From NCBI GenBank assembly GCA_964017185.1, contig OZ024874.1:54973356-55037355 (forward strand): a DNA stretch of 64,000 nt, read 5' to 3'. Source of the stretch: Rugalucina vietnamica (taxonomy: Eukaryota > Mollusca > Bivalvia > Lucinida > Lucinidae). Positions within the stretch are counted from its first letter, which is position 1. Each line of letters opens with the position of its first letter. Below the pieces are notes generated by a model, which saw only the letters and a program-made list of their open reading frames with translations, searched no databases and was not told where the DNA came from. Position numbers and translations under genes: made by a program. Of this stretch, positions 6,341-43,900 are shown in pieces.

Positions 6341-6404
6341 TTTTAATATTGGTAATGGTTTAGTCTGTATGTTACATGGGCATGTTTTCATAATGAGAAC
6401 TGGT

Positions 6405-8337: not shown

Positions 8338-8444
8338 TCAACCAATCTAATTAGTATCAGATTTGTGTAAACAATGACATTTTGCATTATTTCTTTTACA
8401 TATTAGGCAAATATTGTACATGATCTTCGTTTCAAAATCTAAAT

Positions 8445-8677: not shown

Positions 8678-8773
8678 ATTAATATAACAAAGCAACAGAC
8701 TTCCCTTATTTCATTAATTGGAAATGCATTTTTTCTGTTTTGTGTTGTTCTTTAAACCACTAAAAACACAACT

Positions 8774-9009: not shown

Positions 9010-9175
9010 AAGTAATTTAAATTTTGTTTCCACCTTTCATGGCTACCTGGTATACTTTATTTAATATATGAACCGCAATGTGAAAAAACAGGCCTTCCGG
9101 TTTCCAGCCAGGTCTGGATAATACCTTGCTCATACAAAATATTTGCTAATGAAGATACTCTATACAAATAAGTTT

Positions 9176-10713
9176 GAGCCACTGTAAAAGAAAACCAACA
9201 ATCTGCAAATACAAAAACCAGAGGACCAATGGTCCTGTAAACGCTCACCTGAGACCTGAGACATATACCAATAAACTTGTTTGACTAGAATGGTAATATA
9301 CATGTATATAACCCCAGGGCAGGGTCAGAGCAATGTCTGGAGTCAATTTCATTTTTAAATCACAAAGATTCAGTCCATTTGCCAATTTACTGCAAGTTTT
9401 GCCCTTCAAATGACATTGTAACGATTTTCCCCATTCAAATGCATGGGCAACCTAAGTTGACCTTGCCGTAAAAAAGGTCAAGGTCATCCCAGGGTCATGA
9501 TTTATATAAACTTTGTAGAGCTCCATTGCCTGATGCTTCATGCCAAGACTCAAACCCATAGGCCTTCTGGTTCTGGGCCCAAAATATTTTCATAAACATA
9601 AATCTTCTGTCCATTTGCTCATTCCTAGCAAATTTTCAGCCATTAAATGACATTTTCCTATTTTTCCCCATTCAAATGCATGGGCGGCCTAAGTTGACCT
9701 TGCTGTAAAAAAGGTCAAGGGCATCCCAGGGTCATAATTTATATAAACTTTGTGGAGCTCCATTGCCTGATGCTTCATGTCAAGTTTCAAAATCATAGGC
9801 CTTCTGGTTCTGGAGAAGAAGATTTTTAAAGGTTTATGCTATTTATAGGCATGGTGGCCATCTTGGTCATGTGACCTGGACCATTTATATAAACTTTTTT
9901 TCCCTCTTCCTAAGGATGCTCCACATGAAGTTTGGCTTTGATTGGCCAAGCGGTTTCAGAGGAGAAGATGTTTCAATATTATGGAAATATACATGTATAT
10001 AGCCCCGGGGCAGGGGCAAACAACCCCCAGGGGCCAAAATTTTTCCATAAACATTAATTTTCTGTCTATTTGCCTATTCCCAGTAAGTTTTACCCATTTA
10101 ATAGCATTTTACCATTTTTCCCCATTCAAATGCATTGGAGACCTAAGTTGACCTTGCCGTAAAATAGGTCAAGGTCATCGCAGGGTCATGATTTATATAA
10201 ACTTTGTAGAGCTTCTTTCTGTGATGCTTCATGCCAAGTTTCAAAATCATAGGCCTTCTGGTTCCTGAGAAGAAGATTTTTAAAAGTTTTTGCTATTTAT
10301 AGCCATAGCGGCCATCTTGGTCATGTGACCTGGACCATTTATATAAACTTTCGTTCCCCCTTCCTAAGGATGCTCCACATGAAGTTTGGCTTTGATTGGC
10401 CAAGCGGTTTCAGAGGAGAAGATCTTTGAAATTGTGGACGACGGACGACGACGGACGACGGACGGACGCCGGAGCATGGGTATACTATAAGCTCACCTGT
10501 GAGCCGAATGTGAGCCTTCGGCTCAGGTGAGGTAAAAAAGGCGCATACCAGCTTGGCGGTAACAGCGAAGCTGATCTGCGCCTTTGTTTTTGCAAACAGG
10601 ATAGTTCAATCCCTCTCCTTCCTTCATCTGAAATTTCTTCTGTGACTGCAAAGGCTGGTTTGTGTTGGACCTGGTCGGAAACCAAAATTGTTAGTTTTCT
10701 CATGTGAAGGCTC
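9176..10713 (+). mobile_element. Family 1 MITE split by a tandem-core element
   Basis: The left half (9176-9216: GAGCCACTGTAAAAGAAAACC..CAATCTGCAAATAC) and right half (10533-10713: AAGGCGCATACCAGCTTGG through TTTTCTCATGTGAAGGCTC) together make one family 1 element. The tandem-core element 9217-10532 is inserted in its A-rich AAAACAAAG segment. The right end lies only 22 bp past the AMBRA1 stop codon, so the AMBRA1 3' UTR would run into it. Confidence 0.75.
9217..10532 (+). repeat. 454-bp-type tandem-core element (pearl/HINE-like)
   Basis: It opens with ACCAGAGGACCAATGGTCCT and an inverted GCTCACCTGAG. Two to three diverged units follow, each with 'aagttgaccttgccgtaaaa', 'gatgcttcatg(c/t)caag' (near 9533, 9769 and 10215), 'gccatcttggtcatgtgacc' and 'gatgctccacatgaag'. 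It then has a GACGGACGACG tail (10435-10468), GGTATACTATAAGCTCACCTG, and a terminal hairpin ending CTCAGGTGAGGTAAAAA. This order (5' palindrome, tandem core, microsatellite, 3' hairpin) is that of bivalve pearl-type, Helitron-associated non-autonomous elements. Confidence 0.8.
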
Positions 10714-10735
10714 AAGATCAAACATGTCCCAGTAC

Positions 10736-10976
10736 TCAGTCAGAGTCTGAGTTGTCTGTCTGTGTGCCAGAGTTTTGTCGAATACCCCGTATGTTGGTCT
10801 GAGTCGATATACTGATAGTTCTGGGGACACTCGAGTGTGAGAGTCCAGTTCTGGGGACACTCGAGTGTGAGAGTCCAAGTATTTGTTGGAGATTTCGGCG
10901 TCTCTGGGAGCCTGATGATGACTGGGTGACACCGTCTTGACTATCACCGACTTTCTTGTCCACATTCACCATACAA
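10736..10976 (-). CDS. AMBRA1 last exon: LC8 motifs and stop
   Basis: The acceptor is TTTCCCTAG. The frame reads [15 protein letters not shown] and onward to STQTNIRG, then [10 protein letters not shown] and TGA at 10738-10736. The two TQT motifs, 13 residues apart, match the paired dynein-light-chain-binding motifs of AMBRA1. A perfect 30-bp tandem duplication (10817-10846 and 10847-10876) gives [10 protein letters not shown] twice. The human protein continues ~150-200 residues after the TQT pair; here it stops. No WxxL LC3-interacting motif is seen between CRP (previous exon) and the TQT pair. Confidence 0.85.
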
Positions 10977-19900: not shown

Positions 19901-22900
19901 AAATAAGCCTTAAAATTGGCAAAAAATCTTCTAAAAAGTACCACTTTTTAACAAAAATTCAAAATCCCCCTGAAATGAATCAGGAATTTTCCTATATATT
20001 CTATACATTTTTCAAAAATCTCCCTGAAATGGAAGAAAAATCTCCCTGATTCCTGTCCCAAACTCATCACATGTATGAATCTTTGTACAAGTAAACCTCA
20101 AGAAAATGCTATCTTTGGGGTCCATACAATACGACCATGTTATAAGTGAACCGTGTTATAATGAGATTGCTTACAATAGACATAAAGTAAAATAATCCTT
20201 TTAGGAGCCATATAACATGGCCATGTTATAATGAATATTGAATTATAATGAGGCATGTTATACTGAGGTTGAACTGTCCTTCAATATACACATAAGCATA
20301 AGGTATTAAAGAATCAAGTTGCAGACATCAATGTTTAATGTGTGAGTTATGTAATTCTTACTGACATGATTCAGAAACCAAATACCATGATAGCAGAATA
20401 CATTGATCAGGAAAACATGTCCGTGCAATGTATACCCCCTTATACACAGCTTTTATAATGTAAAACAGGGGTAAACAGGGGACAGGGGTATACATGTACC
20501 TATTTTTCTTAATTTTACTCTAAAATATACATTTTTAGTACTCGTTAGAACTGCCAGTAATGTTTTTCAATTTTTTACAACCAAAACAATTGATGTATAT
20601 TTCATGGGCAAGTTTTTGTAACGTGTGGTTCTTACTGACATAATTCAGAAACCAAGTAATACCTTTAACTTAAAGCTCACTTTCATTTTTAGGATTAACA
20701 GGTGTTTTTAAATTTTTTATTTCATTTTTTTTTATGAAATTCCTTTGAGCATGCAGATAATACCGAGATAGGATGCCACATTCTTCGGCGTCACATCTGG
20801 GGCTAATCTGTTTGCCTGTGTCCCATAAATGGGACACTAGGCTAACATTACGAAAACTTGCCCATGCAATATACAGAGAATTTTTTCAGCTGTAAAATTG
20901 AAAATTTTTAAATTTTGTTGGGAGATTTTTTATTATATTTTTGCAGAGGCGGTTCGAACAAGTACCCACAATCTATGTTTTGGATAAACAAGAACTCAGC
21001 GGAGGTCGATATCGCACCTGCATCGGGCAAAGTCAACAGACCGTGAAATATAGTTCAAGGGCACTGGGTCAAGGTGCGTGCTTGAAGGGCATGTCAAGGA
21101 GAATTACTATGCAAGGTTTCAGATTCGCAGCTATCTCTGATGTCGAGAAAACCAAACTTCGACGTAAAGATTTTCAAAGTCAGTGGACCATGAAATATAG
21201 GTCAAGGGCACCGGGTTAAGGTGCGTGCTTGAAGGGTATGTCAAGGACAATTACTATGCAAGGTTTCAGACTTGCAGCTATCTCTGATGTCGAGAAAACC
21301 AAACTTCGACGTAAAAATTATCAAAGTCAGTGGACCGTGAAATATAGGTCAAGGGCACCGGGTTAAGGTGCGTGCTTGAGAGGTATGTCAAGGACAATTA
21401 CTATGCAAGGTTTCAGACTCGCAGCTATCTCTGATGTCGAGAAAACCAAACTTTGACGTAAAAATTTTCAAAGTCAGTGGACCGTGAAATATAGGTCAAG
21501 GGCACCGGGTTAAGGTGTGTGTTTGAAGGGTATGTCAAGGACAATTACTATGCAAGGTTTGAGACTCGCAGCTATCTCTGATGTTGAGAAAACCAAACTT
21601 CACAAAACTTCGACGTAAAAAGTTTCAAAGTCAGTGGACCGTGAAATATAGGTCAAAGCCACAGGGTTAAGGTGCGTGCTTGAAGGGTATGTCAGGGACA
21701 ATTACTATGCAAGGTTTCAGACTCGCAGCTATCTCTGATGTCGAGAAAACCAAACTTCGACGTAAATGTTGACGGACGGACGGACGTACGGACGGACGAA
21801 CGGACGGACAGAAATTTGGACTCCTATATCGCACCCTGCTATAAGCAGGTGCGATAAAAATAAGATTAATAGGTATACCCCTATACACTGCAGTTTTACT
21901 ACTAGTATATAAAAGTGGGGTTAAAGGGGGTCCTTATTTAATGGACATATTTTCCTGATGTATAGTAAACTCATTTAAGCCTTGCGTCCCTTTTGTGGGA
22001 CATAGGCAAACAGAATAGCCCCAGATGGGACGCCGCACAACGCGGCATCCCATCTGGGGCTATTCTGTTTGCTTAGAGAATTTTCATCGAAAAATTGAAT
22101 AAAATTTAAAAATCACACCTCATGCCCCTAAAAATGAAAGTGGACTCACACAAATGATAGTGATGGGAAAATCCATTCGTCAAATATGGGTTAAACTAGC
22201 AATTGATGGAAAAAGGTTCCTTACCATTAGTAATATCAGGTATATCCAGTTTGGTGAAGTCCCAGAATTGTATACGATGTGTCTGGTTAATGATGTTGTT
22301 AGCAACGGCAGATTCCCCCGTCCCCATGAAAGCACCTGAAAATTCAAATACATGTAGATACCAATTGAGTCGTCTCATGAGAAAACCAAGATTTTGAATA
22401 TGCGAAAACAAGGGGCAGATCAGCTTCGCAGTTACTGCAAAGCTGATCAGCGCCTTTGTTTTTTGCTATATCGACAATAAGATCCCTCCACTTTCTAAAT
22501 ATAAAATTTTTAGCCTCTTGCCATCTTCTGTGCTTGTACAGCTCGGTTTGTGTCGGACCTGTTCTGAAACCACATTGTTGGTTTTCTCATGAGGCAGCTG
22601 AAATTATCAGAATTTATGAACTTCATTGTATCAAATGCATTTCCCTATAGTACAACTAATTTTGTTGTTTTTTGTTTCATTTGTTGATTGAGCGCTTAAC
22701 GGCCCAGTCAACAGCTCTGAACATTGCCTCCATTCTGGGATTTCTAACCAACAATTGGATGTCTTGACATCCAAAATGTGCTTAACTTTATAATCCACCT
22801 AAGTAAACATCCATTGTTTTCATGTATGTATGGTTTGACTAGACAAATTTTCCTCAGCAGGCTTAGACCTTCTCAGCAGTTATTCAGTAATCAGTTGGTC

Positions 22901-25900
22901 AGTAAGCTTATAAGCTTTATAAGGTTTGCTTTCAGACAGAAGAAGCCCATCGATCTTCTCAAGAACTAAATCTGCGGTTTATTTCATAATACAATAATAC
23001 ATGGGTATACAGGAATAAGTAAATTCTGGGTACTAATTAAAACTGTGGGTACTCATTAAAACTGTCTCCGTTTCAAAAAAAAAAAAAAAAAGAAAAAAAA
23101 AGAAGACGAAGACGAAATAACATTTTTGAGTCAATTTTCTCATTTTCTACATGTACATGTACATTTTGTTTCAGCATAAAGTCATAGCTCCACATTATGT
23201 AAAGACATCTATCAAACAGATTTGTTTTTATTTAAGAGGGAAAAATAAAGAAAAGAAATGAGCCACTGCATGGGAAAACCAACAACCTGCATAGACGAAA
23301 ACAAAGGCGCAGATCAGCTTGGCAGTAACTGCGAAGCTGACTGCGAAGCTGATCACCGCCCTTGTCTTCGCTACACAGATAGTACAATTCCTCTTCTTTC
23401 TATATCCAAAAGTTCCTGCCTCTAACCATCTTCTGTGACTGTACAGCCCAGTTTGTGCCGGACCTGGTCGGAACCCAAATTGTTGGCTCTCTCATGCATA
23501 GGCTCAAATAGTTTCACACGGACATAATTTTTCAGGATTCTGTTTTGTTTTTTTTTTTTTTTTGAAAAAAAAAAAACCAAACAAACAAGTTCTTTACTTG
23601 TACATGTACCTGCTATGGCTCTATTTATTGCACTCTGTATAGCGTTGTTAGGTCTGTTTATAGTCTCGTCCAGTATACTCCGAGAGTAATGAGGGTGTAG
23701 ATAATGTCGCTGTAGCTCGTGCCAGTGATGCGGTTCAATGTTCTCTACACTGTCTTCTTGGGGACTGATGAAATATTATAGCGCATAGGTTTTAAAATTA
23801 TTGCATATATACCCGTGTCACACAATATTATTATAGCTAACATGATAAACAGATATGTATTATCGAAGAAAAAGCTGTGTATTAATGAGGCATTCATGTG
23901 CACACATGCTTTTATTTAAGAAACAGCATTTATTTATGCTTGTTACCAGGCGCCGCACCAAGCACGTGCTCATAATGAGAAACTGAACTCTGACGGAACA
24001 ATCATGAGAATGAATGATTTAACGTGTATGAAAATATGACGAGGCTGTAAAATATAGTGCACCATAATTTCTTTCATTTGTGCAGAATTTATGCAATAAT
24101 TGCGATCAAAAAAGATTTTGTCATTCATTAACATTCACAAATCATGTTTGATCCCTGTATTATTTTTTCATATTATCCAAATACCAGAGGACCAATGGTC
24201 CTGATATCGCTCACCTGAGATTTTGTCTTTGATCAATGACCTTTGGCTAAGGCATTATTAGTCAATTAACGTAAAATGTAAACTTGACCTTAAATACTCA
24301 CATAATTATTAACTCTATAGACTGTCTGTCTCTACCAACTTTCAGATCTTTCTGGCAATATTTAGGGTGCGTTCATTTACCGGAATGGACATAATTACCG
24401 GAATGGACTACCGGAATGGACATTATGCTATGGCTCTGGGTGCTTTTAATGTATTTACTTGCATAAAATGTACTTCTGTAGTCGTATGAGTAGTTTGCAT
24501 CAGATAAAATTCATCTAAGTATAGCAAAATTTACTTCCCAGGGTGGTTAGGGAAGCTCAGAGGTGGGGTCTGGGATAGGGCCACTGTTCATAGGTTTCTT
24601 TGATTGAAATATATAGAGATCACCAGTGGTTGTTCTATAGCAAACATATGGATATATATAGAAGTAGAAATGAGTAAAATGTGCTGGCACTGTGACGAGG
24701 ACCTATATAACCATATATGGGCACCTGACCCAGGCTACCCGACCGTAAGGAACACAATTTAACTAATTATCGTTAAATTCTATAACTTATCACTGTATGT
24801 ATATATTCTAGGCCAGTCTGTCCTCGAAAACCAAATGAAAAGTACTCAATGACACATATAAATGTCCATTCCAGTAGTCCATTTCGGCAATCAGGTCCAT
24901 TCCGGTCCATTCTGGTATAGGAATGCACCGCAATATTTGACCTTTCTGTTTTAATCAACAGTTTCGTAGGTCAATTTCAACCCAAGGTCATGATTTATAC
25001 CAGAGGACCATTGGTCCTGTAAATGCTCATATAAGACCCTAATAGATAGCTATCGCCTGTTCCGGGAGGACATTCTGGTGCACCCAAAGCCTCTGTAGAA
25101 TGTTGGTTAAGCTACTCCTCAGGATCCTGGATTCGATCCCAGGCTTCTCCAGTTTTTCTGATAAGGCTTTAAAAGAAGGTTTTGCTTTTAGCTCTTGAGT
25201 GGAATATAAAACTTAAATGAAATCAACTGACCAAATCTGATGAAACCATTTACCTTAATTACCACTTGGTGCCTCCTTTGATTTCGAGCGCAGTGTTAGG
25301 CGCCTCTCAAAACTAATTAAAGCCCAATAACAGTAAAATATATTGCTGAGCATTCAAAGATAGTAGTTCAGCAGTAGTTCTATCTATTCTATGTTTTGGT
25401 ATGGATTTTGGCCACCTTTAAGGAAATAGCTACTACATTTAACTCTGCTTATTATACTATGTTCTCTTTAACCAGTACCTGTTTTTGTAAATTTGGTTGT
25501 TTCCCATATGGGATTTTGTGAGACTTTGTTCTCATTGTGCCAGTTCTTGATCATAGCTTTAATGCCTTCTACTTCTCTGTCCTGCCATACCCAACTTTGT
25601 AATCAATAGGTCAGAATCAACCAACTGTCATCATTTTAACGGTACTACACAGGTAAGCAAAATTAGTTGCTGCAAAAGGAGTTTCAGTGAAAACACAACT
25701 AGTGTCGCTTTCTAATATTTTTTATTCATTGAACTACAGTACACTGAATCTTATAGTTCATCTATCAAAATGTATTTACTTTAGACACTTATTTTTAAAT
25801 AAAACACAAAGATACTACATGATAAGGGCTACTATAATCTAATGACAACAATTTAAAAGGTGATTATAAAAGATGAAGAAACTTAATCATGAATCTTAAT

Positions 25901-28900
25901 AATCTTGGGTAATCTAGTATCTTATTGTAGATGTAGAAGTAATGAGACTGTGTCTATAACATTAACAGTTAGAAAACATTCCAAGTCTGGACTTATGCAT
26001 GTAAAATTTCTGTGGCTTAAATAGATACCTTGTAAAATCATTGTAAATGTATAGTTTTACACAATCTATTAACAATACAAGACTACATCATAGAGAATAG
26101 GACAAATAATGACACATTTTTAATGGGCAATATGTTTATAAACTTGTCAATAAAATTAAGATTGTATGACAGTTTAAACAAAATGAAATATATGTACTGA
26201 TAGTATATTTCTAATATTCATTCAATCCAGCATAATGTTCATTTTTGTTTAAATCTATATACATAATTGTAAATAATAAATACTTTTGACCAGTATTTAT
26301 GTACATTATCAACACAGAATCAAACTCTAAGTCACTATGCTTTTGTGAAGCAATACAACCATTCACTAATGTACAGAATCTTTACAATAAAAAAGACCAC
26401 TCCCACTAACTGTTTATCAATATATTGCAATAATGTCTTTTTACAAAACATTGCATAATTTGCATTAATATATAGTGAAAAGCATATCCTCTTGCCAAAA
26501 ATTTATAAAACAAATATAAAACTATATAGCACTTGTTACATCAGTTATCACCATATCATTACAATGAAATTTTCACAATGCATCTAACTGCCTGCTTCAA
26601 TGTTATTAAAAAAAAGTAATATACTGCATATTTGAGATTCTACTCAAATCATATGTTATAGTCACAGTCTCTTTAATTCTAACATCTTGTTTGAGAATAC
26701 ATGTATTTTTACATGTTCTTTATACACAAATTATATATATCACTATAACAACAGTTACTGCATTTTACCATAGTGAAATTTGCTATTAATAATACATAAC
26801 TTTATGATACTTTTTACAGCCTAAATGTAACAATAATGATAAAAGAATTATTTTGTTCTTTGTTTTGGTTAGAGTTGAGGTTTAATGTCTCTCTCAAAAT
26901 CTTTTCAGTTATGCCTAAATAGAACAACTACTTCATAAGTACTAGACCAATACTTTGGTGATTACAGCTTCTTCTACAAATATATGACACCTCAAAGAGA
27001 TGGCTCTCGCTCCAGTTCTAAGGTCTACTACTGAGCCTCCACACTCCCTATTCAGGGAGTAAAAAAGTAAAGCTGAGATCCTTTAAGAGCAGTAATTAAG
27101 CCTCAATTCAAAAATAATTCATTACTGATACAGAACATTAAGTATGCCACTGTGAACTAATTGTAAGAACTCACCATAGTGCCAAAAAATGACTGAAATG
27201 AATATGATTGGATGTAATGTTACACTTAAACAGAGAGAGAGAAAAAAATTAAACAGAAAAAAAAAGGTGGCAACCCCAATAATAAGCTAAACCACCTGAT
27301 TCAATTCCTAGTGGGGTTACGCCTACATTTTTAATGATTTCCACAAAGACCAAAATTCTCAATTCTACTCTGAAATGACATACAATTCGGAAGATTTTAG
27401 TAATACTGAGACAAAGCAATTTTAGTTGCTAGTCCTAGTCAACAACAATACATGTATTTAGCTCATTTAAATTTCCATGTTCTTGCCGAGTTGTAAAGTT
27501 GCCATGTAACTTGAGGGTGCTATCTTTATTCTGATTTTTGTACTTCATAACTTCATTCATGTTCAGCATCATTCATTTGAATATCTATTTGTCTATGGCA
27601 CAATATATTAGTTTATGATCAGACCAATAAGCCTCAATGACATCACAAAGCCCTTCAGAATTTGAAAATATCAAATCTAGTACTGATCCAGAGTCCGTTG
27701 TACATTGCTTGATTTGCTGCATACACCCAAATAATGTCTCCACAAAATCCACAAACCCTGTACTGGTACCATCTATCTGTATGTTGAAGTCACCTAATAT
27801 GACTAATTTAGCATTCAGATCAATAACAGGCCTAAGATGACAATTAAGATCTTTTCTAAAATCTGTCTGTGAACTTTTTGGGTATTTGTACAACACAACA
27901 ACTTGAACATAACTTCGTTGAATGCTGAAAGTGTTAGTGAATATGAATTCAAATGACTTGCATTGCATTTTAACAACTTTCTGAATCTGCAAGTACTCCT
28001 TTACATACAATGCAAGTCCATGATATGGTCTGTTGTTTGTCTCTTTTACTGTGTCATCAAGTCTAATAAGTCTGAACCGTTTCAGGGCAAAATGTACATT
28101 TTCATCCCTACTACATAACCTTGTTTCAGCAAATCCAATGATATCTGCTGCCAACACATTTGGTTCAAATTGGACATCCTTATAATGTTTATGCAAGGAT
28201 CTAGCATTGTTGAATGCAATTTTGGTTTTGTCTGATCCGATTTTATACAGAGGAACATAACACAGTTCTAAGGCAGCATCTGTGCGTAGCCTTTGCATCT
28301 CTATAGTCACATCATCATCTAGCGCCATAGCAGCTTCATTCATATTCAGTATATATAAATCTTCCAGCTTTTTCACTCTACTAAATGCAACATAGTGAAC
28401 GTGTGGTATTTTCTTTGTTACAATCTGGGACAAATCAACAACTACCTTGTCAACTGTTGCACCTTCAGCTTTCCAGACTGTTTTACCTGAAGCTGGTGTC
28501 ACTGGGAACTGGCTTCTCTGAAATGTTTTGTAGTTCACTATAAATGTTCGTTGTGTTTCAAATACAGGTGTCCAGTCTGAATGAATGCTTGAATTGTAGA
28601 ATTTCTTGTTTTTCTCACGTGTTGCTCTACCAACCCGAGGGTCATCAAACAATACCCAAATAATGCTAGGACGGTTAGTTCCTTCCATCCACCTGAAGTC
28701 AACGTGTTTTACTACACCAGTAGCACCATTAGTTAAACCATCTTCTACATCTACATTAGCTGTATGAACAACAATCATTCCAACAACTACAGTCAATGAT
28801 TTCTTTAGCTGGCCTGTTTGTCCATAGTCCTTTGGGAGATTATCAATCAAGGACTGGTGCCTGCTGGCAGGAATGTTTGCTGAGACAACACTGTCATGGC

Positions 28901-31900
28901 ATGGAATCACAAACTTTTCTCCAGGCAACTGACTCAAAATAGTGTCATTGTGTTTGTCTACATAACAATTCATAGCAAACAAATGAAGGGCATCCTTTGG
29001 ATAGTCACCAGTTTCACGGTCAACAACACGGGTCTGCAGCTTTTGTTTGTCTTCCTCTGTCATTTCATTCAATCGAAGTCGATTTAATAACTGTGCAAAT
29101 GCTAGATCGTCTTTCTGTCTCATGATATCAACCAATTCGTACATCGTAAAGAGCTCTTTCCATAAGTTCCTTCCCAGTGAAGATGCTCCCTTTTTCAAAT
29201 CAAGACATATCAAGTAATCACCTACTGGCTTAAGCTGGAAAAGATCCCCAACAGCAATAACACTTAAACCACCAAAAACTTCTTTTGTTCCCATCAGCTG
29301 CTGTAAGCGAGTGTCAATAAAGCTTAGTGTCATGTTGCCTACCATTGATATTTCATCAATAATGATAATTTTCAGATGTCGGTACTTAATTCTGAATGTA
29401 TTTAACTCATCAGCTGAAAGATGATTTGTGCCCTTTTGATACATTTTCCTGTGAAATGCAGAGCAAATAGTTTGGCCACTAATATTAAATGCAGCAAAGC
29501 CCATGTACGCACACAGCAGAATTCTTTTTTCATCTGGATTTTCTCCATCTTTCAAATTCAAAATCCTGAACAGACTTTGATAAAGTGCTCGAATCACTAC
29601 TGATTTACCAACACCTGCCCCTCCTGTTAGGAAAGCGTAGACTGGTTCATCTTTACACTTAATCCAGTGCACAATATGATTAAAGAATTCTCTTTGTCTC
29701 AAATTAAGACTTCTGAGTAGTCCTAAGTATTCTTCTTCTGGTAATAAAATGCTGTTAGTTTCTACTGGGGGTACTGAGCAAGTTGACTGTAGTTCTATTC
29801 CAATATCATAATGTCTCTGCTCTACAACTCTACTTGGGTTAAAACAAACAAACTTTTCTGATTCTCCTGACCCTTCTTCTTCTGCCTCCCTATTTTCTTG
29901 CTCTGCATTTGGTGCAATTTGATCATAGTCCCTTTCCTCAGCTTCCATCATCTGCCTTGCAAGCTCAAGCTCTTCAGCATGATGCTCATATTCATTTCTT
30001 TTGGATATCAATGATGTCTGTACAGAGTTATAATGAGCTTCATATGTGCCAAAACAACCAATTAAATCTTTTAGTTCATTTCGCCAAGGTACAAAAAGCA
30101 TTAGCTGCTCTCTGAAGTAATTTTCTGGATCCTTTTTCTGGTTGTATTTAACATACCTTATTATTCTTGGAACTTTTCTTTTCTTGTATTTTGTTCCATT
30201 CTTTGCTTTGAACAGCAAATCTGAAGTTTTTGTGTCACTTTCATCCAAACTTTCATGACCTTCATCTTCAGAGCTACTGACGAAACTGTCGTCATCATTA
30301 GTATCATCAAATTTCTCTGGTAGTTTATTTCCTTTCGGATAAATAACATCAATCTTTGAAACATAATCAGCCAGGCAAAACTTCCCAAGCTGCCTTGGTC
30401 TTTTAGAATACCTCTGTATGACATTTTCTGATTCTATATCTGTAGATTCAGCAGGAAGTTCATCAAGAGCAGCTTTTGGCTTCAGCAGGAAGATTCTTTC
30501 TTCAGGTATAGATGTATTGATGAAAACAATATCCCTTGTGCACTTTGTCAAAGGTATTTGCAGATCAAGATAAACTGCCTCTTGAGCACTAACCTCCACA
30601 CAGTTTGAAAATACATTCCCAATATGCCGGACTTGTTTTTTAAGGTCAAGGTTTCCTCTTCTAGCCTCTTTTGCTGCTGCATCAAGTTGTGCACTCATTC
30701 CTCTTTGTGATTTACTTATATAACCAACTATATATGAAGCACATCCATATGGTTCAAGAACAATCTGAATGTCAAGATTAGCTTTCCAGGCAAGAAGTAT
30801 GTTTTCATTAAATGGATTTATCCTCATTTCCTTTGTTTTACGTTTTAAGAAAACCTTCGGTGCTTTCAAAGAGCTTCTGATGCAACAAATGTAGTCTTCA
30901 AAGTCCATTTTAGCGATGTTTTGTAGAAATTCGTTAAATGTCATATCTTCATTTTCTTTACACTCATTCATCACTTTTTGGAGCTCTGTATTCTTCTTTT
31001 TGTACTTGTCAACATTCTCCTCAAGAGGGTACAACAACATAGTTCTTGGCAATGGTGGCAATGGAAATCCAAATCGACATATTGGTTTTCCCTTTTTTCT
31101 GCAGGTTCTAGAATGTTTGTGACTTTGAAGTTTAACAAGATCTGCTGTCTTCTCATTATCACTACTGCATGTTAGATACTGATCAACAAACTGAATTATT
31201 TCCTCTTCAGAGTTTGTTTCTAAAGTTGGAGCATTTTCTACCCAAACAAGCATATGGATATGAGGAGAGCCACGCTGCTGAAACTCAACTCTATAAAAAT
31301 AGTCACATACCTTTCCGACTGGCTCACAACTGCTTTTTAGAATAGTATTGAGGAACTCTTGTACCCTATGATCAAAGTACCTTGAACATGTAACTGGGTC
31401 TTTCTGGACAAGCTTTGTTTTCTGTTGCCAAGTTAGCTTTTCTAATTCCTTTTCAGAATATTCAGTGCCATCATTCAATTTTGCTAACATCTTCAACAGA
31501 TCTGTCCATCTAGTATCAGCAGCTGACAATGACATAAACCAAGTAGGCAAGGAAAGTTGTCTAATCATTGCAAAAATGTCTTTCTTGCGCATTTCCAAAT
31601 AGGCTGGAGAATTTCGCAGCTGGCGAAATATATAGTAACCTTCATCAAGATTTACAAGTTTGTCCAAATAATTGGAATCTCTAGCTTCAGCTGCTGTGAT
31701 TTTTTGGCCTCTTTTTTTACACCTTCTAATGGCTAAGTTGACTTTGTCACTTATTTGTTTCATCTGTAGCTTTTTATGTTTAAAGAATATATTGGGAACT
31801 GACTGTGCAGCTCTCCTGTCAACACTTCGTAATTCCCACTTTACAATGTCACTGTAATGAACTGGCACTACCCTTTCATCCTTGCTGGGCGGGGTCTGGC

Positions 31901-34900
31901 CACAAAATATTGTTGGAAAGCATAAGTACTCAGCCTCTTGATCTTGATATAAGCTTAATGGATGTTGTCCTTCACCTGGTGCAAAAGTGAACACTTTATC
32001 ATATTTATTGTCAATATCAGCATCATCCACTAATGTATCTATATTTCCAACATGATCATTAACATCAATCTCACTGTAATGATCAGATTCATAGTCAGTA
32101 GCCTCTTCAATTGCATTTTCACTACTTTTATCTTGTTCCTGCTTTTCATTTTCTGTACTACTTCTACCCGTGGATTGCTCTTTTGACACTTCCAAAAATT
32201 CTCTGACTGTATCCTCAGCACTTTCAGTAACTTCCTGAAACCAGCTATCATTAATAACTATGCCAGAATTTTTATATAGTTTGCTATTGTTCATAAGCCA
32301 GTGTAATGCAGACAAAACTCTTAATGGTCTTACATTTTCTTTGAAATCCACCTTCTTGTATGACAATTTCTTTTTCAGTTGGATGGCAACTGTAAAATTT
32401 TCATCCATTGGCCTTGGGAGACAGTTTATAGTGGGCTGAATGTCAACAGGTACATTTATAACATTTCCTTTCAAAGAATATTGACCACCACGTGGCAATT
32501 CCCTAATCTGCATAAATGGGATACGCAGGGCTATTAACCTTTCTTCTAGCTGATGTAAATTGAGCTCTGGAGGCTTGTCTGGCCATTTCATGCCATTAGC
32601 AACTGATAACTTTGGAATTTTACTATCTTTCAGGGCACTCAAGCAGGTATGACAAATCCATTCTTCATTTCTTAAAGATGTCAAACCTGTACAATGGAGT
32701 CTTTTACTTTCTGCTGAAATATGGGTGTTCTTTAACATTGAAACACTTTTCCTGAACCATGTCTGATGGCAACATGAACAAGCATATATAGGTCCAATAG
32801 AGATATCTGAATGGAATTGTTTGATAGCATTTTCAATATTTTCAAAATGTTTATGATGAGGTTTTGAAACAGTATCTGTGTCATGCTTACATCTTTTTCT
32901 AGGAACATTTATCTCTGAATTATCTTCAATTTTTCTTTTTTCCTGCCTTACTTGTTGCTTCTTAATTCTCTCACATTCAAGAATATAAGGGTTTTCCCTT
33001 GCCTTCTTTTTAGATGCATTCTGGTATACTCGCTCACGTGCTCTAAAAGCCTGATTTTCCCTTGCTATTTGCTTTGATTTCCTTTCCTTTGTTTTGAATG
33101 CCTGATTTGTCCTTGCAGATTGCTTTGATTCTCTTTCTTTTGCTTTAAATACAGGGTCTTTTCTGGCTGCTCGCTTCGATTCCAACTGATACACAATTTC
33201 TTTGGCATTTAAATCAGGATTGGCTCTCACAGATTGCTTTGCTATTCTTTCTTTTGTTCTGAAGACAGGGTCTTTTCTTGCTGATTGCTTTGCTATTCTT
33301 TCTTTTGTTTTGAAACCAGGGTCTTTTCTAGCTGATTGCTTCGATTCCAACTGGTACACAGTTTCTTTGGCCTTAAAAACAGGATTGGTTCTCCTATATT
33401 GCTTTGATATTTTTTCTTTTGTTCTGAAGACAGGGTCCTTTCTTGCTGATTGCTTTGATTCCAACTGGTACACAGATTCTTTGGCCTTAAAAACAGGATT
33501 GGTTCTCCTATATTGCTTTGATATTTTTTCTTTTGTTCTGAAGACAGGGTCTTTTCTTGCTGATTGCTTTGATTCCAACTGGTACACAGTTTCCTTGGCC
33601 TTAAAAACAGGATTTGCTCTAGCAGTCTGCTTTGATTGTTTTTCTTTAGCTTTGAATGCTGTGATTTGTCTACATTTTCTTCTATAAAGTTTATAATACT
33701 CCATGCGATTTTTCTTCCTTTTTTTTCCTAATGCCGCCTTTGATTCTTCAATTGATATGCTTGAAATTCTACTTCGTTTTAATTGTGCTTTGTGAGCTTG
33801 TCTCAACCTTTGATCATTGAAGTAAGCTTCCATATTTCTATCCATTTGATCTTTAAAACTTCGTGTTTCTTCAGTCATTTTAATTTTGATAGGTAAGAAG
33901 TCAAACTGTAAGTTGGTGTTGGTATCCAAATTTAAACTGTCATAAAATGCATACATATATGTAACTAAGTCATTGATACTTGTGAAAGTTATCAAACAGG
34001 ACGTACCATCATTTGACGAAAGTCCATTTTCTCCATGGGAATGAGAATCAAAAAATACATACATGTCATTCTTTCTAAATACAGCAGAGCATATGGCTCC
34101 AATAGTTAAGAGCCCTGATGTTGCATACAAAAAGACGGATTGCAATACTTCGTGAAGTGTTGGCAAACCAAGATTTTGAGTATCAAGAAGCACACCACTT
34201 ACAATAGGCAATTTCTCAGATGTAAATTTTCCTATCTCTACCTTAAAGTCATCTGGAATTTCTTCTAAAGTCAGCAGGTGGTTAACAAATTTTCCATCCT
34301 CTCTTAATTTTTTTATAACACTTTGATACAGAACATCTCCCTCACAAAGCACCTTGTCTAATATAGAGCTTTTTTCGGTATCAAGGCATGAAGAGTATGA
34401 CAGCATACATAATGCGTTACATGTGCATTGATATCCTCTTGATTGCTCAGAAAATCTGACATCATTCTGGTGAAAACTTCCAAAGACCAAATCACAGGCA
34501 TTCCACAATTGTACCGATGATTTTACTGCTTGGTAACACACCACATCATTATCTAATCCCGGTTCTGATGAATCTCTGTTGACATGAGGCTGTGCTGTAA
34601 TGTCTTTCTTATGCCATGCATGTTGTTGGAACATTGTTTTTTGTGAACAAACCGTTATATCCTGTCTTTCAGACAAATTTTCAATGTTTCTTGATTGATA
34701 ATCAGCATCCACACCAGGAAAAGTATCGAGAAATACTGCATCAAAATCTGTCTGTACATTTGATTTAACATTTTCTATGAGCTTGCTGAGATCAATAACT
34801 AACTGTTGAAACTCATTTGTATTTGCCTGATTGTCTTTGTTAGCCCTTTTTTGTTCTGAATCAAGACTTGTCAATAAAGCATCCTCTAACAAATCATTAT

Positions 34901-37900
34901 GCTGAAACTCAGTCTGTTTATTTTGTATATTTTCACCTTCTAATTCAGTGTTGTATACTGACTGTTTTTGATTATATGCCTGTTTCTTTTCATGTATAAA
35001 CACCGGCATCTTTTCCGGACTTAGTGCCTGCATCTTTTCAGGTCTTAATGCCGGCTTCCATTCCGGACTTTGTGCCCACTCGCTGATGGGACTAAATGCC
35101 GGCCTCCTTTCCGGACTTTGTGCCCACTCGCTGATGGGACTTAATGCCGGCCTCCTTTCCGGACTTTGTGCCCACTCGCTGATGGGACTTGTCGATGATT
35201 CATACTTACCTGTCCTCCAGTCTGTCCTCTTGCTCTTTGACTTTTTCCACCCTTTCCTCTTAGGCATCTTTACTCAATCTGAAAATATAAAAGAAGACAC
35301 CATTTAGCAAGACACATTAACTAACATTAACTCCCAACAGTACTGGTTAAGCATGGGAAGCATTGGTTCCATCCCGACATGACTGAAAATGTGTTGACTG
35401 GGATGTTAAGCAAACAAAATAAATAAATAAATAAAATATATATTTTCCTTGTGAAAAAAAATGGACCCAATTCTTCTGAGTAGGAGTAACTTTTTAGGGT
35501 TAATCACATATGGGGGAAACAAACTTAATTTTAGTTTTGGCAGGGTGAGGGGTGGGCAGAGGGGGGGGGGGAGGATTTAAACGAAAACAAACACATTTAT
35601 ATTTTTGCATTTATTCCATTACATCATCATATAACAATATATTCACCTCTTCCATGCCTCCAATACCCAATCCCCTACCACCCCTATGAGAATCAAATTA
35701 AGTTAAAATGGAGGAAACAAAATGTTCAAATATATGTTATTTTTAATCTTTTCTGAAGGAAGTTTTTGTTTATAAATCTACTTTAAACACAGCTAGAACT
35801 TTTTCTCAGTTCAATAAAATTATATATGATGAATAAATTTTCAATCTGCATTTTATTTGTATATTATACTCACCCTCATAAAGTACCATTTCTAATAGTG
35901 AACTTTATTCTACATCAAGGCAAACTGAGTATGCCAATGCATGTGCACTTATAACCTCTAGACTGTTCGGAAAAAGTTTGCATCATTTTGATGAACACTT
36001 CTAAACACAATGGTACTTAAATAATCTGAAGAATGGTTATCTGAGATTTTTGTGTTCGAAGTATTAGGCAGATTTGTTTCATGACTATACACAGAAGCAT
36101 TTTCTAGTTAATAATTGTACTGTAATTCACAGTGTCATCATTTCTTGAATTAGTGCCTGTATTATTTCAGGACTTCATGCCGGCATCATTTCCGGACTGT
36201 CATTTGCATGTATTCTTTAAAGTCTTTATGCCGGCTTCCTTTCCGGACTTGTTGCCCACTCGCTGATGAGACTTGGTGCCCACTCACTGATGGAACTTGT
36301 TGCCCACTCGCTGATGGGGCTTAATGCTGGCTTCTTTTCCACACTTTGTGCCCACTCACTGATGGGACTTAATGCCGGCCTCCTTTCCGGACTTTGTGCC
36401 CACTCGCTGATGGGACTTGTCTATGATTCATACTTACCTGTCCTCCAGTCTGTCCCCTTACTCTGTGAATTTTTCAGGTCTGAAAATATAAAAGAAATCA
36501 TTTAAATCTAAGCATCTACACCAAAAAAGCACTGTGTTATGCATCAAAAGCTACCAAGTGGATGCACAAATCAGCTGCAAAAACCCACAGACTCTTCATG
36601 TGACCTGGAAAATTTAACAATTTTTTTTGCTTCCAAATGAAATTCATTTTTGACTAATCAAATTTTCAACGGCTCTTGATTGATAATCAGTTCCACACCA
36701 GGAACAGTATCAAGAATACTGCATTAAAATCTGTCTGCACAATTGAGCATGTCGGACATCTTGGTCAAGTGACCTGGACAATTTACATAGTTTTAGGTCC
36801 CACTTTCTAAGGAGGCTCCACATGCAGTTTGGCTTTGATTGGCCAAGCAATTTTCGACAAGAGGATGCCTGACTATTTCTATCAATTACATTTATAAAAG
36901 CCCTGAGACAGGGGCAGATAACCCCCTGGGACTAAGAAGATTTTTAAAGGTTTTGCTATATATAGCCATGGCGGCCATCTTGGTCATATGACCTAGACCA
37001 TTTATCCAAACTTTCGTTCACCCTTCCTAAGGATCCTCTGCACAGTTGGCTTTGATTAGCCAAGAGGTTTCGGAGAAGAAATAATTTGAATATTATGGTC
37101 ATATACATGTATACAGCCTCAGGGCAGAAGCAGACAACCCCTTGGGCCCATAATATTTTCAGAAGCATAAATCTTCTGTCCGTTTGCTCATTCCTAGCAA
37201 GTTTTCGGACATTAAATTACATTTTCATATTTTCCCCCATTCAAATGAATGGGAAACCTAACATGACCTTGCCATTACATAGTTCAAGGTCATCACAGGG
37301 TCATGATTTATACAAACTTTGTAGAGCTCCATTGCCTGATGCTTCATGCCAAGTTTTAAAATCATAGGCCTTCTGGTTCTGAAAAAGAAATTTTTTAAAC
37401 ATTTTTAAAGGTTTTTGCTATTTATAGACATGGTGGCCATCTTGGTCATGTGACCTTGACCATTTATACAAACTTACATCCACTCTTCCTATTGATGCTC
37501 CACATAAAGTTTGGCTTTAATTGGCCAAGCGGTTTCAGAGAAGAAGATGTTTGAATATTATGGTCATACACATGTATATAGCCCCGGGGCAGGGGCAGAC
37601 AACTGTCTGGGCCCAAAATATTTTCATTTACATAAATCATCTGTCCATTTGCTCATTCCTAGCAAGTTTTTTGACAATATATGACATTTTACTATTTTTT
37701 CATGGGCAGCCTAAGTTGACCTTGCCATAAAAAAGGTCAAGGTCATCCCAGGGTCATGATTTATACAAACTTTGTAGAGCTCCATTGCCTGATGCTTCAT
37801 GCCAAGTTTCAAAATCATACGCCTGCTACTTCTGGAGAAGAAGATGTTTTAAGGTTTTTGCTATTTATAGTCATGGCGGCCATCTTGGTCATGTGACCTT

Positions 37901-40900
37901 AACCATTTATACAAATTATCATTCTCTCTTCCTATTGATGCTCCACATAAAGTTTGGCTTTAATTGGCCAAACGGTTTCAGAGGAGAAGATGTTTGAATA
38001 TTATGGTCATACTCATGTATATAGCCCCAGGGCAGGGGCAGACAACCCTTGTGGCCCAAAATATTTTCATAAACACAAATCATCTGTCCATTTGCTCATT
38101 CCGAGCAAGTTTTTTACCAATATATGATTTTTTCCTATTTTTTTCCCATTCAAATTCATGGACGGCCTAAGTTGATCTTGCTAAAAAAAGGTCAAGGTCA
38201 TCCCAGGGTCATGATTTATACAAACTTTGTAGAGCTCCATTGCCTGATGCTTCATGCCAAGTTTTAAAATCATAGGCCTACTAGTTCTGGAGAAGAAGAT
38301 TTTTTAAGGTTTTTGCTATTTATAGCCATGGCGGCCATCTTGGTCATGTGATCTTGACCATTTATACAAGCTATCATTCACTCTTCCTAATGATGCTCCA
38401 CATAAAGTTTGGCTTTAATTGGCCAAGCGGTTTCAGAGAAGAAAATGTTTGAATATTATGGTCATACACATGTATATAGCCCCGGGACAGGGGCAGACAC
38501 CCCTCTGGGCCAAAAATATTTTCATAAACATAAATCAACTGTCCATTTGCTCATTCCTAGCAAGTTTTTTGCTATTATATGACATTTTCCTATTTTTTCC
38601 AATTCAAATGCATGGGCAGCCTAAGTTGACCTTGCCATAAAAAGGTCAAGGTCATCCCAGGGTCATGATTTATACAAACTTTGTAGAGCTCTATTGCCTG
38701 ATGCTTCATGCCAAGTTTCAAAATCATAGGCCTTCTGGTTCTGGAGGAGAAGATTTTTAAAGGTTTTTGCTATTTATAGCCATGGCCGCCATCTTGGTCA
38801 TGTGACCTGGACCATTTATACAAACTTTCGTTCCCCCTTCCTAAGGATGCTCCACGTGAAGTTTGGCTTCGATTGGCCTTGTGGTTTCAGAGGAGAAGAT
38901 CTTTGAAATTGTGAACGACGGACGACGGACGACGGACGACGACGGACGACGACGGACGACGGAGCATGGGTATACTATAAGCTCACCTGTGAGCCTTCGG
39001 CTCAGGTGAGCTAAAAATCTTACTACATGGTAATTGGTATAACATGATATTTGTTTGTTTGCAAAATTTTAATTGCACTATGATGTATATAGAGGAAATG
39101 TTGATACTATATGAGCAGCGTTGTGAGAAAACGGATTATAGTCCTGTAGCCATCTGGTCTATTTGAGGTTGACCTGGATTTAAAGTACATAGAAAATGTT
39201 TTTACATATTTGGAAAGGTGAGGTCTTCTGCATTAAGAATCCGATGGGTGACATCTTGTCACCATTGAGCAATTTGAGAAATTCAAGATGGCGTCCAAGA
39301 TGGCTGCCCATATACAGAGAATGCTATTTTCCTGTGAAATAATCATGTTTTGTCAGACTTTTAGACCTGATATCACTTGTATTTAAAACCTGAATTAATT
39401 GTACATTAAAATGAGTCCAAGAAAATATACTCTGTAAAAGGGGCATCAAAGATGGCTGCCAAAACTAAGGAAAAAGCAATATTTGAAAGCAGTGCCTTCC
39501 AAAGTTCAAAATTTTCAAACTGAACCACTTGCTGGTATTTTATTTAATGTTTATGGATCCAGTGGATGGCATCTTGTCACCAGTGAGCAAATTAAGAAAT
39601 CCAAGATGGCATTCAAGATGGCTGTCAGTATACGGAAAAGTAATTTCTATGCAAATATTCATGTTTTGGCATATTTAATTTATGAAATCTGTGCAATTAA
39701 TACCATGTTAGGAGTGCATCTAAGATGGCCACCACAGAAAAGGAACATTTTACAATTTTGGCTTGTTTGTTTGTTTGTTTTGTTGCTTACGCCCAAGTCA
39801 ACCGATATTGTCATGCCGGGATATTACCTCCATTTCCAACATTGGGATGCCATGACATCCGAAACATACTCAAACTACAACCACTAAATTAAACAACTCA
39901 TGCTTATAAATATGGATGCTCTTAAAGGATCTCAGTCTTTTTTATTTGTCTAAACCACTTTTTCCAGGCAGGTTCAGATCAGTCATCAAACGGCTCGTCA
40001 GTTTTATCTGTAAATACACGCAACCCATATTTCTCTCACAACCTAAAATGACAGGTAATATCTCCTTTTGTGCTGCATGCGTAATACTACAGAATGGTGG
40101 TCAAGAGGGAATGTGGGCATCGGGTCAAGAGAAATATATTAGCTGCTTTTGTCTCCAGGCAAAGTTTTGAAAAATCTACTGAATGACCATCTGAGTAATG
40201 GGTTACAGCACAAGGAAAGTGGTTAAAGTAAAACCATCCATACATGTAAGCCTTAGTTGTTAACTTAGGTGGTTTTATTTTCAAGCACATTCTGCGTCAT
40301 GTCATCCACGTTTGGTAGAAGTCCCAACATGACCATAGCTGTTGACTGGGACATAAAGCACCAGCACAAGCAAACAAACAAACAAGTAATGTGGTCACTT
40401 TCACATAGTATAAAAGTCAAAGATCTGTTGACAAATCACTGCAAAATACAGGGACATGTAGTTCACAGCGCCCTAGACTAAGAATTATGGTTCAAACATT
40501 GGGGTTTAATGCCTCATTATCTATAGGCCCACATACATGTATCTTTTCTCATATACATGTATGTATCTTTTATTCTGGAAGACAGACAGCAAAGTCTGGA
40601 AATGTAGATCCAAGTGACCTATGATTATGATTTTAGGGGGCGGGCTGTAACTAATGTTGTCAGAACTTGGAGCCCAATCCCTTTGAGATGACAATAAAAT
40701 ATGTTTAAGCTATGATTACTGTAACAGCATGTACTCCTATTGATTGAAAGTCAATAGCTGATAACTAATATGGAACATGATACTAGAAAACCTGGTGGCC
40801 AGACAATGGCTCTGAATACAGGTAGGTTTCCAAAACGAAAACTCAATATTGATTGCGAGGGGGGGGGGGGGGGCAGTTTTACTGTACAGGTAATAAGGGG

Positions 40901-43900
40901 TCATTAAACCAATAAACAATGGTATCACATGCATTATTCTATAGGAACCCCTTAATTATTCCATAAAGCGATGAAATAATCACCTTATTATGGCAGTCCA
41001 TTGATCATTGACAAATATTGCACAAGGGGGGTCATAAATTGAATAAACACTGGCACCAATTTAGCTCATTCAGAAGAATATACACTGTATCTCTTTTAAT
41101 TGTAGAACAGTGGGTTCTACTGACAAACACTCTATATGCACACTTTCATGCATCCTTGGTCAAGAAAATATGCATGTACAACTAAATGGTATACATTCAA
41201 ATATTATAGGCTGGACTCAAGCTTGACACCAACCAAGCTGAAAGTCTACAAGGCTGTGGTACTGCCAACCATTTTCCATGCATGTGAGACCTGGACAGTA
41301 TACCAATGTCATCAAAGAGACTTCACCATTTCCACATTAAGCTGTTAGAGAAAGCTGTTAAAATCAAGTGGCAAAACAAGATTCCAGACACGGAGGTCCT
41401 GAAAAAAGCAGGAATGCAAAGCATGAATACAGTCTTCAATGTACATAGCTAAGATGGACTGGCCATGTTATAAGCATGCCGGATGCGTGACTTCCAAAGA
41501 AAGTTTTCTATGAAGAACTACAGGAGGGAAATCGCTCTTAATGTGGCCAGAAGAAACGCTAGAAAGACATACTCAAAGCCTCTCTGAAGGATTTTGAAAT
41601 ACCAATGGGTTCTTGGGAACAGACTGCACAGGAGCGATCAAAGTGGCGAGGTCTCATCAACAAAGGAGCAACTCTATATGAAAAAATAGAGAATCTGTGA
41701 AGGTGAAAAAAAAACGCAGAGAATGCAAAGCCAACCACCAGCAGCTTCCATAACACTGACTTGCTCTACTTGCAATCGACAGTTTAGAGCTAGAATTGGC
41801 ATAATCAGCCATCAAAGAACTCACCAACATACATGAACCTTATTCAAGAAATAATGATGATCTTTCTCATTAGTCAGAGACGATGTCTTGAAAACAATAA
41901 AGGGAATGGAAAACCATATTTGATGTCATAATTTGAGCCAAAACAGACATTTTCAGAACAGTTTCAAATTATGGAGAACGAGTAATTAGCATGTAAAGCA
42001 CTGATATTGTGTATGTCTTACTGGTATATGTATTTTAATCTGCAGGAGTCATTAATATATTAAATATACTAAATGATGACCATAAGTCAATCCAGATTTC
42101 AAAAATACTTTTATCTATTCGGACTTATTCTTTGACTGATGTTTACAAAAATTGCCACCTTACTACTTGTTTTGAGAAATTCTTTAGTTTCAATATCAGC
42201 ACTTTTCAATATTACATTTTCCTTTATTCTGGCGAACATTTTAGATGATCTCCATACTTTGTGAATTTTTGAACTGGTTTCGATGTACACAGACTAGTTC
42301 AGCCTTTAAATGCGAGTTATTTCAGGTCTTACATCTGCCAAAACACGATTATTTACATGCTAATTACTGTTCTCTGTATAGGGGCAACCATCCTGAATGC
42401 CATCTTGAATTCTCAAAGTGTTCAATGGTGATAAGATGACATCCATCGGAGTCTTAAATGTTAACAAAATGCCACCAAATTATTTGTCTTACGAAATTCA
42501 TTAGTCTTGAAATCACCTCTTTTCCATTATGTAATTTCCTTTATTCTGGCGGCCATCTTGGATGCCCTCCATACAGCCTGTTTTCGTGTGCTAATTTCAA
42601 TGTACATTTGATTCAGCTTTCAAATACAAGTAATCCCATAATTTAAAATATCTCAAAATTTGATTATTTCCATGGAAACTACTGTTTTCCGTATACGAGC
42701 AGCCATCTTGGACGCCATCTTGAATTTCTCAAATTGCTCAATGGTGACAAGATGTCACCCACCGGATTCTTAATGTAGAAGACCTCACCTTTCCAAATAT
42801 GTAAAAACATTTTCTATGTACTCTAAATCCAGGTCCACTGAAGGTTCTGCCGGATATTACCTTTGCGAAAACAAAGACACAGATCAGCTGTGCAATAACT
42901 GCACAGCTGATCAGCGCCTTTGTTTTCGCTACACGGTTTGTTCGATTCCTTCTCTACTTATACTCAAAATTTAAAGATTCTAGCATTCATCTGTGCGTGT
43001 ACAGGCCGGTTTGTATCAGACCTGGTATCAAACCCCGAAGACCGGGTTTTCTCGCGACGCGGCTCATGTGTGTTGTAGTATCTGTTTCTTTTTAATGCAT
43101 TATCAGATTGTGTGTGTCTACTTATATCTTTCTCAGTATGAGTTTATATGTCTATTTATAACATACTCAGGTAAGCTGTTGGTTCCCAGTAAGTTGCTGG
43201 TTCCCCGTCTCTGCCTGTTGTGAGATCTGAATGAGGTCTCCAGTAGTGTAGGAGGCTGGGAAACAGTCACATCTGTAAACAAAAATGATGTTTTTTTTTT
43301 TCTTTCTCTCAAAACATTTTTGTTCTCTGATTATAGGTACATGTAAGCTTTCTACAAAAAGAAAGGTGATAACATAGGACAGTTCCTATATAAGGATGAC
43401 AGAATTTTCTTGTTGAAATCAACTGACAGCAGATAATACAACTGCTAATTGGTACTATATATGAGCTGCATCGTGATAAAATGGGATTATTGTCTATGCA
43501 AAGCTGATCAGCACCTTTGTTTTCGCTTCTCGGATAGTACAATTCCTCTACCTATTTGCAAAATTTCAAGCTTCTAGCCTACTTCTGTAGCTGCACAGAC
43601 CGGTTTGTGTCAGATCAGGTCGGAAACCCTGAAGACCCGTTTTCGGGGCTCATACATCAATTTTCATAAGAGCTTTAATAATTACCTCGAGAGCTTGCCG
43701 GTATTGTCATCTCTCCACTTGCTGAAGCTGCTGGATCCTCAAGTCCAGTCACTCTGATCACTGGAACATCCCTTGAGTCGTTATGAGGGTTGTTTCCCCT
43801 GAGAGCATTCTCTCCCCTGGCAGCTCTTTCAATGGAGGTCAGGTTGGTATTGGTATCAGTCAAACTTTGCCCAAGACTCTGATACCTTTCTCTATCTTGT

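Follow-up and report, generated by a model that had tools for sequence, protein, structure and literature searches.

Ideas on how Helentrons move have been drawn mostly from a comparison with Helraiser, a Helitron reconstructed from bats. To our knowledge, Helraiser carries neither an EEP nor a VTD domain. In Helentrons, molluscan ones included, tegument-like deubiquitinase (VTD) domains have been described, and deubiquitinase activity has been assayed for those of zebrafish Helentrons (PMC9741609). Head-to-tail junctions and tandem arrays are known for plant and bat Helitrons (PMC5876387), inner copies truncated at the 3' side are mentioned in PMC7492417, and direct partners among the non-autonomous HINEs share ends more than 95% alike with their Helentrons (PMC4067079). 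We describe here a Helentron in 64,000 nucleotides of the lucinid bivalve Rugalucina vietnamica (GenBank assembly GCA_964017185.1, contig OZ024874.1, positions 54,973,356 to 55,037,355 of the forward strand; this whole stretch is the window, and coordinates count from its first letter unless another contig is named).

The window element is very probably a single copy of an autonomous Helentron that has multiplied recently. Its predicted domains, the Rep signature and the form of its ends support its assignment to the Helentrons, with an EEP domain that matches its profile weakly. An earlier note, made from the letters alone, had placed an apparently intact Helentron at 27585..35267. These coordinates are correct for the reading frame and cover the coding core only; the mobile unit is 24183-39017 on the minus strand, 14,835 bp counting five T at the 5' end. 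Its parts, in 5' to 3' order of the element, are:

24183..39017, minus strand: whole Helentron; identity between copies begins and ends here, and flanks differ
38981..39017, minus strand: 5' terminus, T-run (39013-39017) and hairpin AGCTCACCTGAGCC..GGCTCACAGGTGAGC (DNA fold, genome count)
36934..38907, minus strand: 455-bp satellite-like tandem array, 4.4 units (TRF)
35900..36746, minus strand: decayed, non-collinear duplicate pieces of the 5' part of the open reading frame (ORF) (BLAST)
27585..35267, minus strand: single ORF, ATG to stop, 2,560 amino acids (aa), with VTD, DUF6570, HUH-Y2 Rep, PIF1 helicase and EEP-like parts
33885..34481, minus strand: VTD domain, C281 and D407-x-H409 (PDB 8ADD, Pfam PF04843)
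33039..33685, minus strand: tandem repeats inside the coding sequence
31245..31733, minus strand: HUH nuclease (Helitron_like_N) with Helentron signature (Pfam, 98.3 bits)
30720..30734, minus strand: paired tyrosines, YIVGY (1512, 1516)
29052..29708, minus strand: PIF1 helicase (Pfam, E 3.5e-18; PDB matches to PIF1 and Helraiser)
27615..28148, minus strand: C-terminal EEP-like nuclease, aa 2374-2551 (Exo_endo_phos profile, GDFN/SDH motifs)
24997..25036, minus strand: relic second 3' end, 816 bp before the real 3' end
24209..24219, minus strand: 3' subterminal inverted repeat (subTIR), 11 bp, matches 5' GCTCACCTGAG
24188..24202, minus strand: 3' palindrome AGGACCATTGGTCCT, 5 bp off the 3' end

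The stop-free frame of 2560 codons reported earlier is present, and at its base composition such a run would arise by chance with a probability of about 10^-87. Four Pfam families score above cut-off in the ORF: Herpes_teg_N (aa 264-414), DUF6570 (882-1009), Helitron_like_N (1179-1341) and PIF1 (1854-2072). The HUH/Y2 Rep and the PIF1 helicase lie within one ORF, as expected of a Helentron, and the Rep part, which aligns to Helraiser (PDB 7lcc, E 1e-4), has the residues that are diagnostic of Helentrons, F/Y-x-R ahead of motif 2 and an S separating G from P. The motifs lie at aa 1336 (HIH), 1512 (YIVGY), 1882 (Walker A), 1968 (Walker B), 2492 (GDFN) and 2549 (SDH), the last two being what we take to be EEP-type motifs. 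The complete catalytic set claimed in the earlier note was thus located motif by motif, with the reservation that the EEP profile match falls below the Pfam cut-off; the C-terminal position of this stretch and its GDFN/SDH motifs fit the Helentron type. The VTD stretch matches a zebrafish Helitron VTD (PDB 8ADD, E ~1e-26, precisely 9.5e-27), with QCTCNAL and FDSHS in common, scores 35.3 bits against PF04843 and, judging by sequence alone, keeps the catalytic Cys and Asp-x-His. A fold model of this domain (AlphaFold without alignment) reached a pLDDT of 33 and was not used. A Pfam scan of the 2,560-aa ORF found no RPA or OTU domain in it.

We mapped the ends of the element by aligning copies and taking the common points at which identity starts or stops and flanks diverge, first with the window's reverse strand against the upstream DNA of four copies and the downstream DNA of two, and then with 13 further 5' ends and 12 of 13 further 3' ends (the copy at C7:9.7 Mb, which contains an N gap, showed no 3' end at the expected place). 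This alignment, which the earlier note had proposed, recovered both true ends that the note itself had missed: the element runs from the T-run and hairpin at 39017 to CTCTGGT at 24183, with flanks that vary between copies. The 5' hairpin folds as DNA with -13.5 kcal/mol (z -5.7). The 11-bp subTIR GCTCACCTGAG lies 6 bp from the 5' end and 26 bp from the 3' end, and the element has the end structure of Helentrons, whose subTIRs measure 11 bp or more and are accompanied by a 3' palindrome. Three papers in an open-access library contain one of the end sequences searched there, all of them of unrelated title.

Insertion occurs in T runs. We read the 5' flanks of 18 copies, that of the window among them. 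In L039 the flank is itself a junction of two ends, next to an N gap; the remaining 17 end in five or six T (14 copies) or in two T (3 copies). On the other side, 12 of the 15 flanks read begin with T, and so does a sixteenth (L060). The copy at C7:41.9 Mb sits in a HINE repeat unit, where the filled site reads CCATTTTT, then the element, then TTCCCATTC; unfilled units, for instance CCATTTTTCCCCATTC and CCTATTTTTTTCCCATTC, are related repeat units rather than the same locus lacking the insert, and the comparison gives a T-run target with no duplication beyond T. The flanks and this one unfilled-site comparison show the T-run insertion without target duplication that is characteristic of Helentrons.

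Further copies were sought in the genome from which the window comes, 1.09 Gb in 47 contigs. The best 18 of 2,354 candidates in a protein search, window copy included, all cover residues 1-2560 without a stop, and each of the 17 other ORFs shows one or two differences from that of the window in 7,683 bases. Measured against the commonest base, these 18 best-scoring ORFs carry seven copy-level differences in 138,294 bases, which represent six distinct changes, three synonymous and three not. A 60-mer over the HUH motif occurs exactly at 52 places. The earlier note had called the copy probably young and apparently intact, had proposed a search for near-identical copies, and had named high divergence of all other copies as evidence to the contrary; such divergence was not seen, the near-identical copies exist, and the window copy has its 2,560 aa free of stops, its domains in place and both ends mapped. 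The near-identity of the copies compared indicates a very recent spread. If 1e-8 to 2e-9 changes per site are assumed for each year, the burst would be about 5,000-25,000 years old.

With 40 5' ends and 40 3' ends listed, at least 27 of the 52 copies tagged by the exact 60-mer pair with both ends, and the rest have a 5' end only (9), a 3' end only (12) or neither (4), the pairing counts being lower bounds. Element lengths by end spacing range from 14,826 to 15,660 bp, with a mode of 14,834 bp; longer variants were seen at C2:11919722-11935381 (about +0.8 kb), C4:67777127-67792226 (about +0.27 kb) and C11:24590921-24606229 (about +0.47 kb), and at C4:54421037-54426410 the ends are just 5.4 kb apart, probably a deletion form. 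Copy L018 (C4:67.78 Mb) has an insertion of about 0.27 kb in its 3' part, about 1.54 kb past the ORF stop. Two of the 52 tagged copies, on the small contigs C19 and C32, could be second haplotypes of placed copies. A search for an empty allele of the C32 copy with its 552-bp flank found no near-identical second place among the best 40 of 7,973 candidates, all of them matches to dispersed repeats (75-94%).

When up to three mismatches are allowed, the 60-mer has 130 places, and the 100 listed comprise the 52 exact ones, 17 with one change and 31 with two. Tallied by hand from these 100 of the 130, the 17 carry one identical change, and the 31 divide into 19 of one form, 10 of another and 2 single forms. 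All three changes by which the shared forms are defined fall on third positions of Ile and Ser codons and are synonymous; one of the single forms is likewise synonymous, and the other turns the Ser before PHIH into Phe. Position 45 is T in all 48 listed non-exact places and C in the window's sublineage. Since the sublineages differ almost only synonymously in the 60-mer, we take the catalytic core to have been held by selection and the family to have been long maintained. The sequences suggest a resident family with several multi-copy sublineages, among which that of the window underwent a very recent burst.

Whether this burst continues bears on the claim of the earlier note that the copy is possibly active. 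It is conceivable, if rather unlikely, that the amplification took place during the last tens of thousands of years and that the family has since been repressed or become immobile, since identity dates the burst (in the range given above) rather than the present. However, the copies read are intact and numerous, and the several multi-copy sublineages suggest repeated bursts. Activity is well supported as a possibility for the family, and not for the window copy itself.

The arrangement of the ends was examined as well. A 3' end followed by a 5' end within 10 bases was found at 285 places genome-wide (reversed control, 0), tail-to-tail ends within 10 bases at none genome-wide, and head-to-head ends within 20 bases at 2. 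In the 100 junctions listed of these 285, which lie on contigs C1-C4 only and were read at the ends without the adjoining elements, the spacer between the ends is a single T in 43 and TT in 28. These 71 of 100 compare with two-T runs in 3 of the 17 dispersed copies and one-T runs in none (Fisher p 5e-5, junctions inside one array being non-independent). On C1, three junctions are spaced 1.5 kb apart, tandem-array-like, and on C10 a copy that breaks off at position 11,681 of the 14,835-bp element runs straight into a second one, which keeps its own 3' end (L060). The excess of head-to-tail junctions fits what rolling-circle concatemers predict, and rolling-circle multimers are the simplest reading of them. 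The junctions might instead go back to later insertions into the T on the 3' side of a copy already present. The T-run targets and the mostly T-starting 3' flanks would favour such same-strand adjacency, and a minority of the listed spacers are longer and T-rich, but we consider this improbable as a general explanation, given the preponderance of T and TT spacers, so unlike the runs behind dispersed copies, and the C10 tandem, in which a 3'-truncated copy joins a second one. The minority with long T-rich spacers may well be secondary insertions of this kind.

There might be two integration routes, an idea we put forward tentatively: dispersed copies come to lie behind about five T, as though the EEP nuclease had made the cut, and multimers have one or two T at their joints, as though the HUH nuclease had closed them unaided. 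Were this true, the genome would be a natural record in which the tasks of the two Helentron nucleases can be told apart, and an autonomous copy with a 455-bp array would drive the spread of satellite DNA directly.

The exact 33-bp 5' hairpin occurs at 6,505 places in the genome (reversed control, 0), against the 130 places of the HUH 60-mer, so that most of these hairpins probably belong to non-autonomous elements. The window contains a short relative:

9217..10540, minus strand: HINE-like non-autonomous relative, 1.3 kb, with ends and a tandem unit akin to those of the Helentron

Its 3' 16-mer is exact and its 5' 13-mer has one mismatch (a variant hairpin). It aligns with the 5' region of the Helentron over 948 bp at 87.9%, including a unit related to the 455-bp array, and its last 38 bp are 92% alike. 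Because 88% falls below the more than 95% of direct partners, this HINE may belong to a sister sublineage.

The size and diversity of the family bear on its origin. A single copy that arrived recently from another species and then multiplied would account for the near-zero divergence among the copies read. We judge such a horizontal arrival very unlikely, in view of the shared one-mismatch (17) and two-mismatch (31) forms among the 100 places listed of 130, and of the thousands of exact hairpin ends and the 88% HINE, which point to long residence; in addition, viral contigs scanned with six peptide patterns and both element ends gave no match. Phage records matching the protein number 247, all below 60% identity, and the 10 listed match the helicase part only.

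Several observations weigh against a young, autonomous and mobile family. The 18 ORFs compared are the best-scoring of 2,354 candidates and are thus biased to intact copies; they are also 18 of the 52 tagged copies, with the other 34 outside the comparison, and polishing of the assembly could have removed real differences between copies. The EEP-like stretch, even when scanned alone, scores 22.4 bits (E 1.2e-4) against an Exo_endo_phos cut-off of 24.5, and the 3' palindrome AGGACCATTGGTCCT is not significant as a fold (z -0.2). The 6,505 hairpins were counted by their ends alone, the bodies of the elements being unread, and the sole HINE read is just 88% alike. Finally, a 35-mer at codon 1321 has 52 places; 51 of them read C, which encodes Arg, and the window copy alone reads T, which encodes Cys, so that R1321C is private to it (1/52). 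This residue lies 15 residues ahead of the first His of the HUH motif; the aligned residue in Helraiser is Ile, which gives no support to R1321C as a disabling change. This change, the VTD domain, the related sublineages and the thousands of additional 5' ends had escaped the earlier note. That the identity was produced by polishing or collapse in the assembly is extremely unlikely: two copies read (L021 and L039) do abut or hold N gaps, but flanks differ among the 15 copies for which both sides were read, and private substitutions or indels occur in several copies.

For a recently amplified autonomous Helentron, the ends, the near-identity of the copies, the insertion into T runs and the junctions were observed, and we infer the enzyme activities, current mobility and the movement of partners. 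The HUH/two-tyrosine nuclease of the ORF product would nick the T-flanked 5' end, the PIF1 helicase would peel off one strand as far as the 3' palindrome, and a T run would receive the copied strand or circle, with target bases not duplicated. The EEP-like domain probably makes or biases the nick in the T run, a hypothesis already published (PMC4067079), and the VTD domain probably shields the transposition proteins from degradation, likewise a published hypothesis (PMC9741609). Short partners that share the hairpin are most likely mobilised by this machinery too, which would sometimes leave head-to-tail multimers.

The non-coding parts of the element may record older rearrangements. The decayed duplicate upstream of the ORF (35900..36746) consists of seven BLAST matches (75-96%) to ORF nucleotides 21-265 and 505-594, and contains a broken remnant of the VTD active site with stops. 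The 3.4 kb 3' of the ORF hold no frame of 100 codons. The relic 3' end is 80% like the real one over 40 nt, with 1 mismatch in 16, and looks like the trace of a past end bypass that brought flanking DNA into the element, for which it is a candidate. An acceptor-like TTTTCAG lies at 35279 (minus strand), just 5' of the ATG, and a donor-like CAG/GTAAGT at about 35207 (minus strand), in the first codons of the ORF; both recur in the decayed duplicate. The true mRNA start of the ORF may be spliced.

Around the element, the following features were found:

43675-46785, minus strand: open frame of 1,036 codons, without a Pfam family; its best PDB match (E 0.085) is unconvincing
8440-9029, 17430-17658, 22362-22591, 23255-23514, 54585-54759 and 55643-55889: another dispersed repeat family

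The C32 flank carries two inverted pieces of this repeat family. The earlier note had placed the Helentron within the autophagy gene AMBRA1, on the same strand. Fragments that we take to be AMBRA1 match the minus strand at 54980-54783, 53503-53330 and 52975-52922, with five further minus-strand matches between 22282 and 12306. By Pfam, the first of these stretches (54980-52922) is WD40, and the second (22282-12306) has no match. In PDB, 555 sequences matched the first stretch, and the 60 listed are other WD40-type proteins, none of them AMBRA1. AMBRA1-like stretches in the orientation of the element do flank it on both sides, as claimed; the name of the gene comes from the fragments presumed to be AMBRA1, none of the 60 PDB sequences listed confirming it, and we call it AMBRA1-like. 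The frame at 43675-46785 is possibly a long middle part of the AMBRA1 coding sequence.

Helentrons, and the VTD in them, were known already; this family is a further member. As in the Helentrons of PMC4067079, the Rep signature has F/Y-x-R before VExQxRG-S-PHxH, a PIF1 helicase and a putative C-terminal nuclease are fused to it, and 11-bp subTIRs, a 3' palindrome and T-run insertion with a variable number of T are present. In contrast to the mite elements described there (38-60 and 8-35 bp), the 3' subTIR and the palindrome lie 26 and 5 bp from the 3' end; unlike in the Helentrons of that paper, the autonomous copy carries a 455-bp satellite-like array, and its 2,560-aa ORF has no RPA or OTU (smaller frames being outside the scan). 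The VTD within a RepHel-nuclease ORF, with catalytic Cys and Asp-x-His kept, resembles zebrafish DrT1 and DrT2 (PMC9741609; PDB 8ADD), and traces of a second VTD copy recall DrT1, which has two; unlike in DrT1/DrT2, the second copy is broken, upstream and outside the ORF. The HUH-PIF1 core and the head-to-tail end junctions are shared with Helraiser (PMC5876387; PDB 7lcc), which was reconstructed, whereas the present family is intact in nature. As a natural test system, in which near-identical copies with mapped ends number in the dozens and additional 5' ends in the thousands, it would allow the roles of the T-run, the two nucleases and the deubiquitinase to be tested. Like Cg_HINE of the Pacific oyster (PMC7492417), the window HINE is a short, T-run-inserting element with central satellite-like repeats. 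Cg_HINE could be linked to no autonomous partner there; here, a HINE and an intact Helentron have end types in common and a repeat unit that is 88% alike, and the family offers satellite-bearing HINEs an autonomous relative, the link left open by the oyster study.

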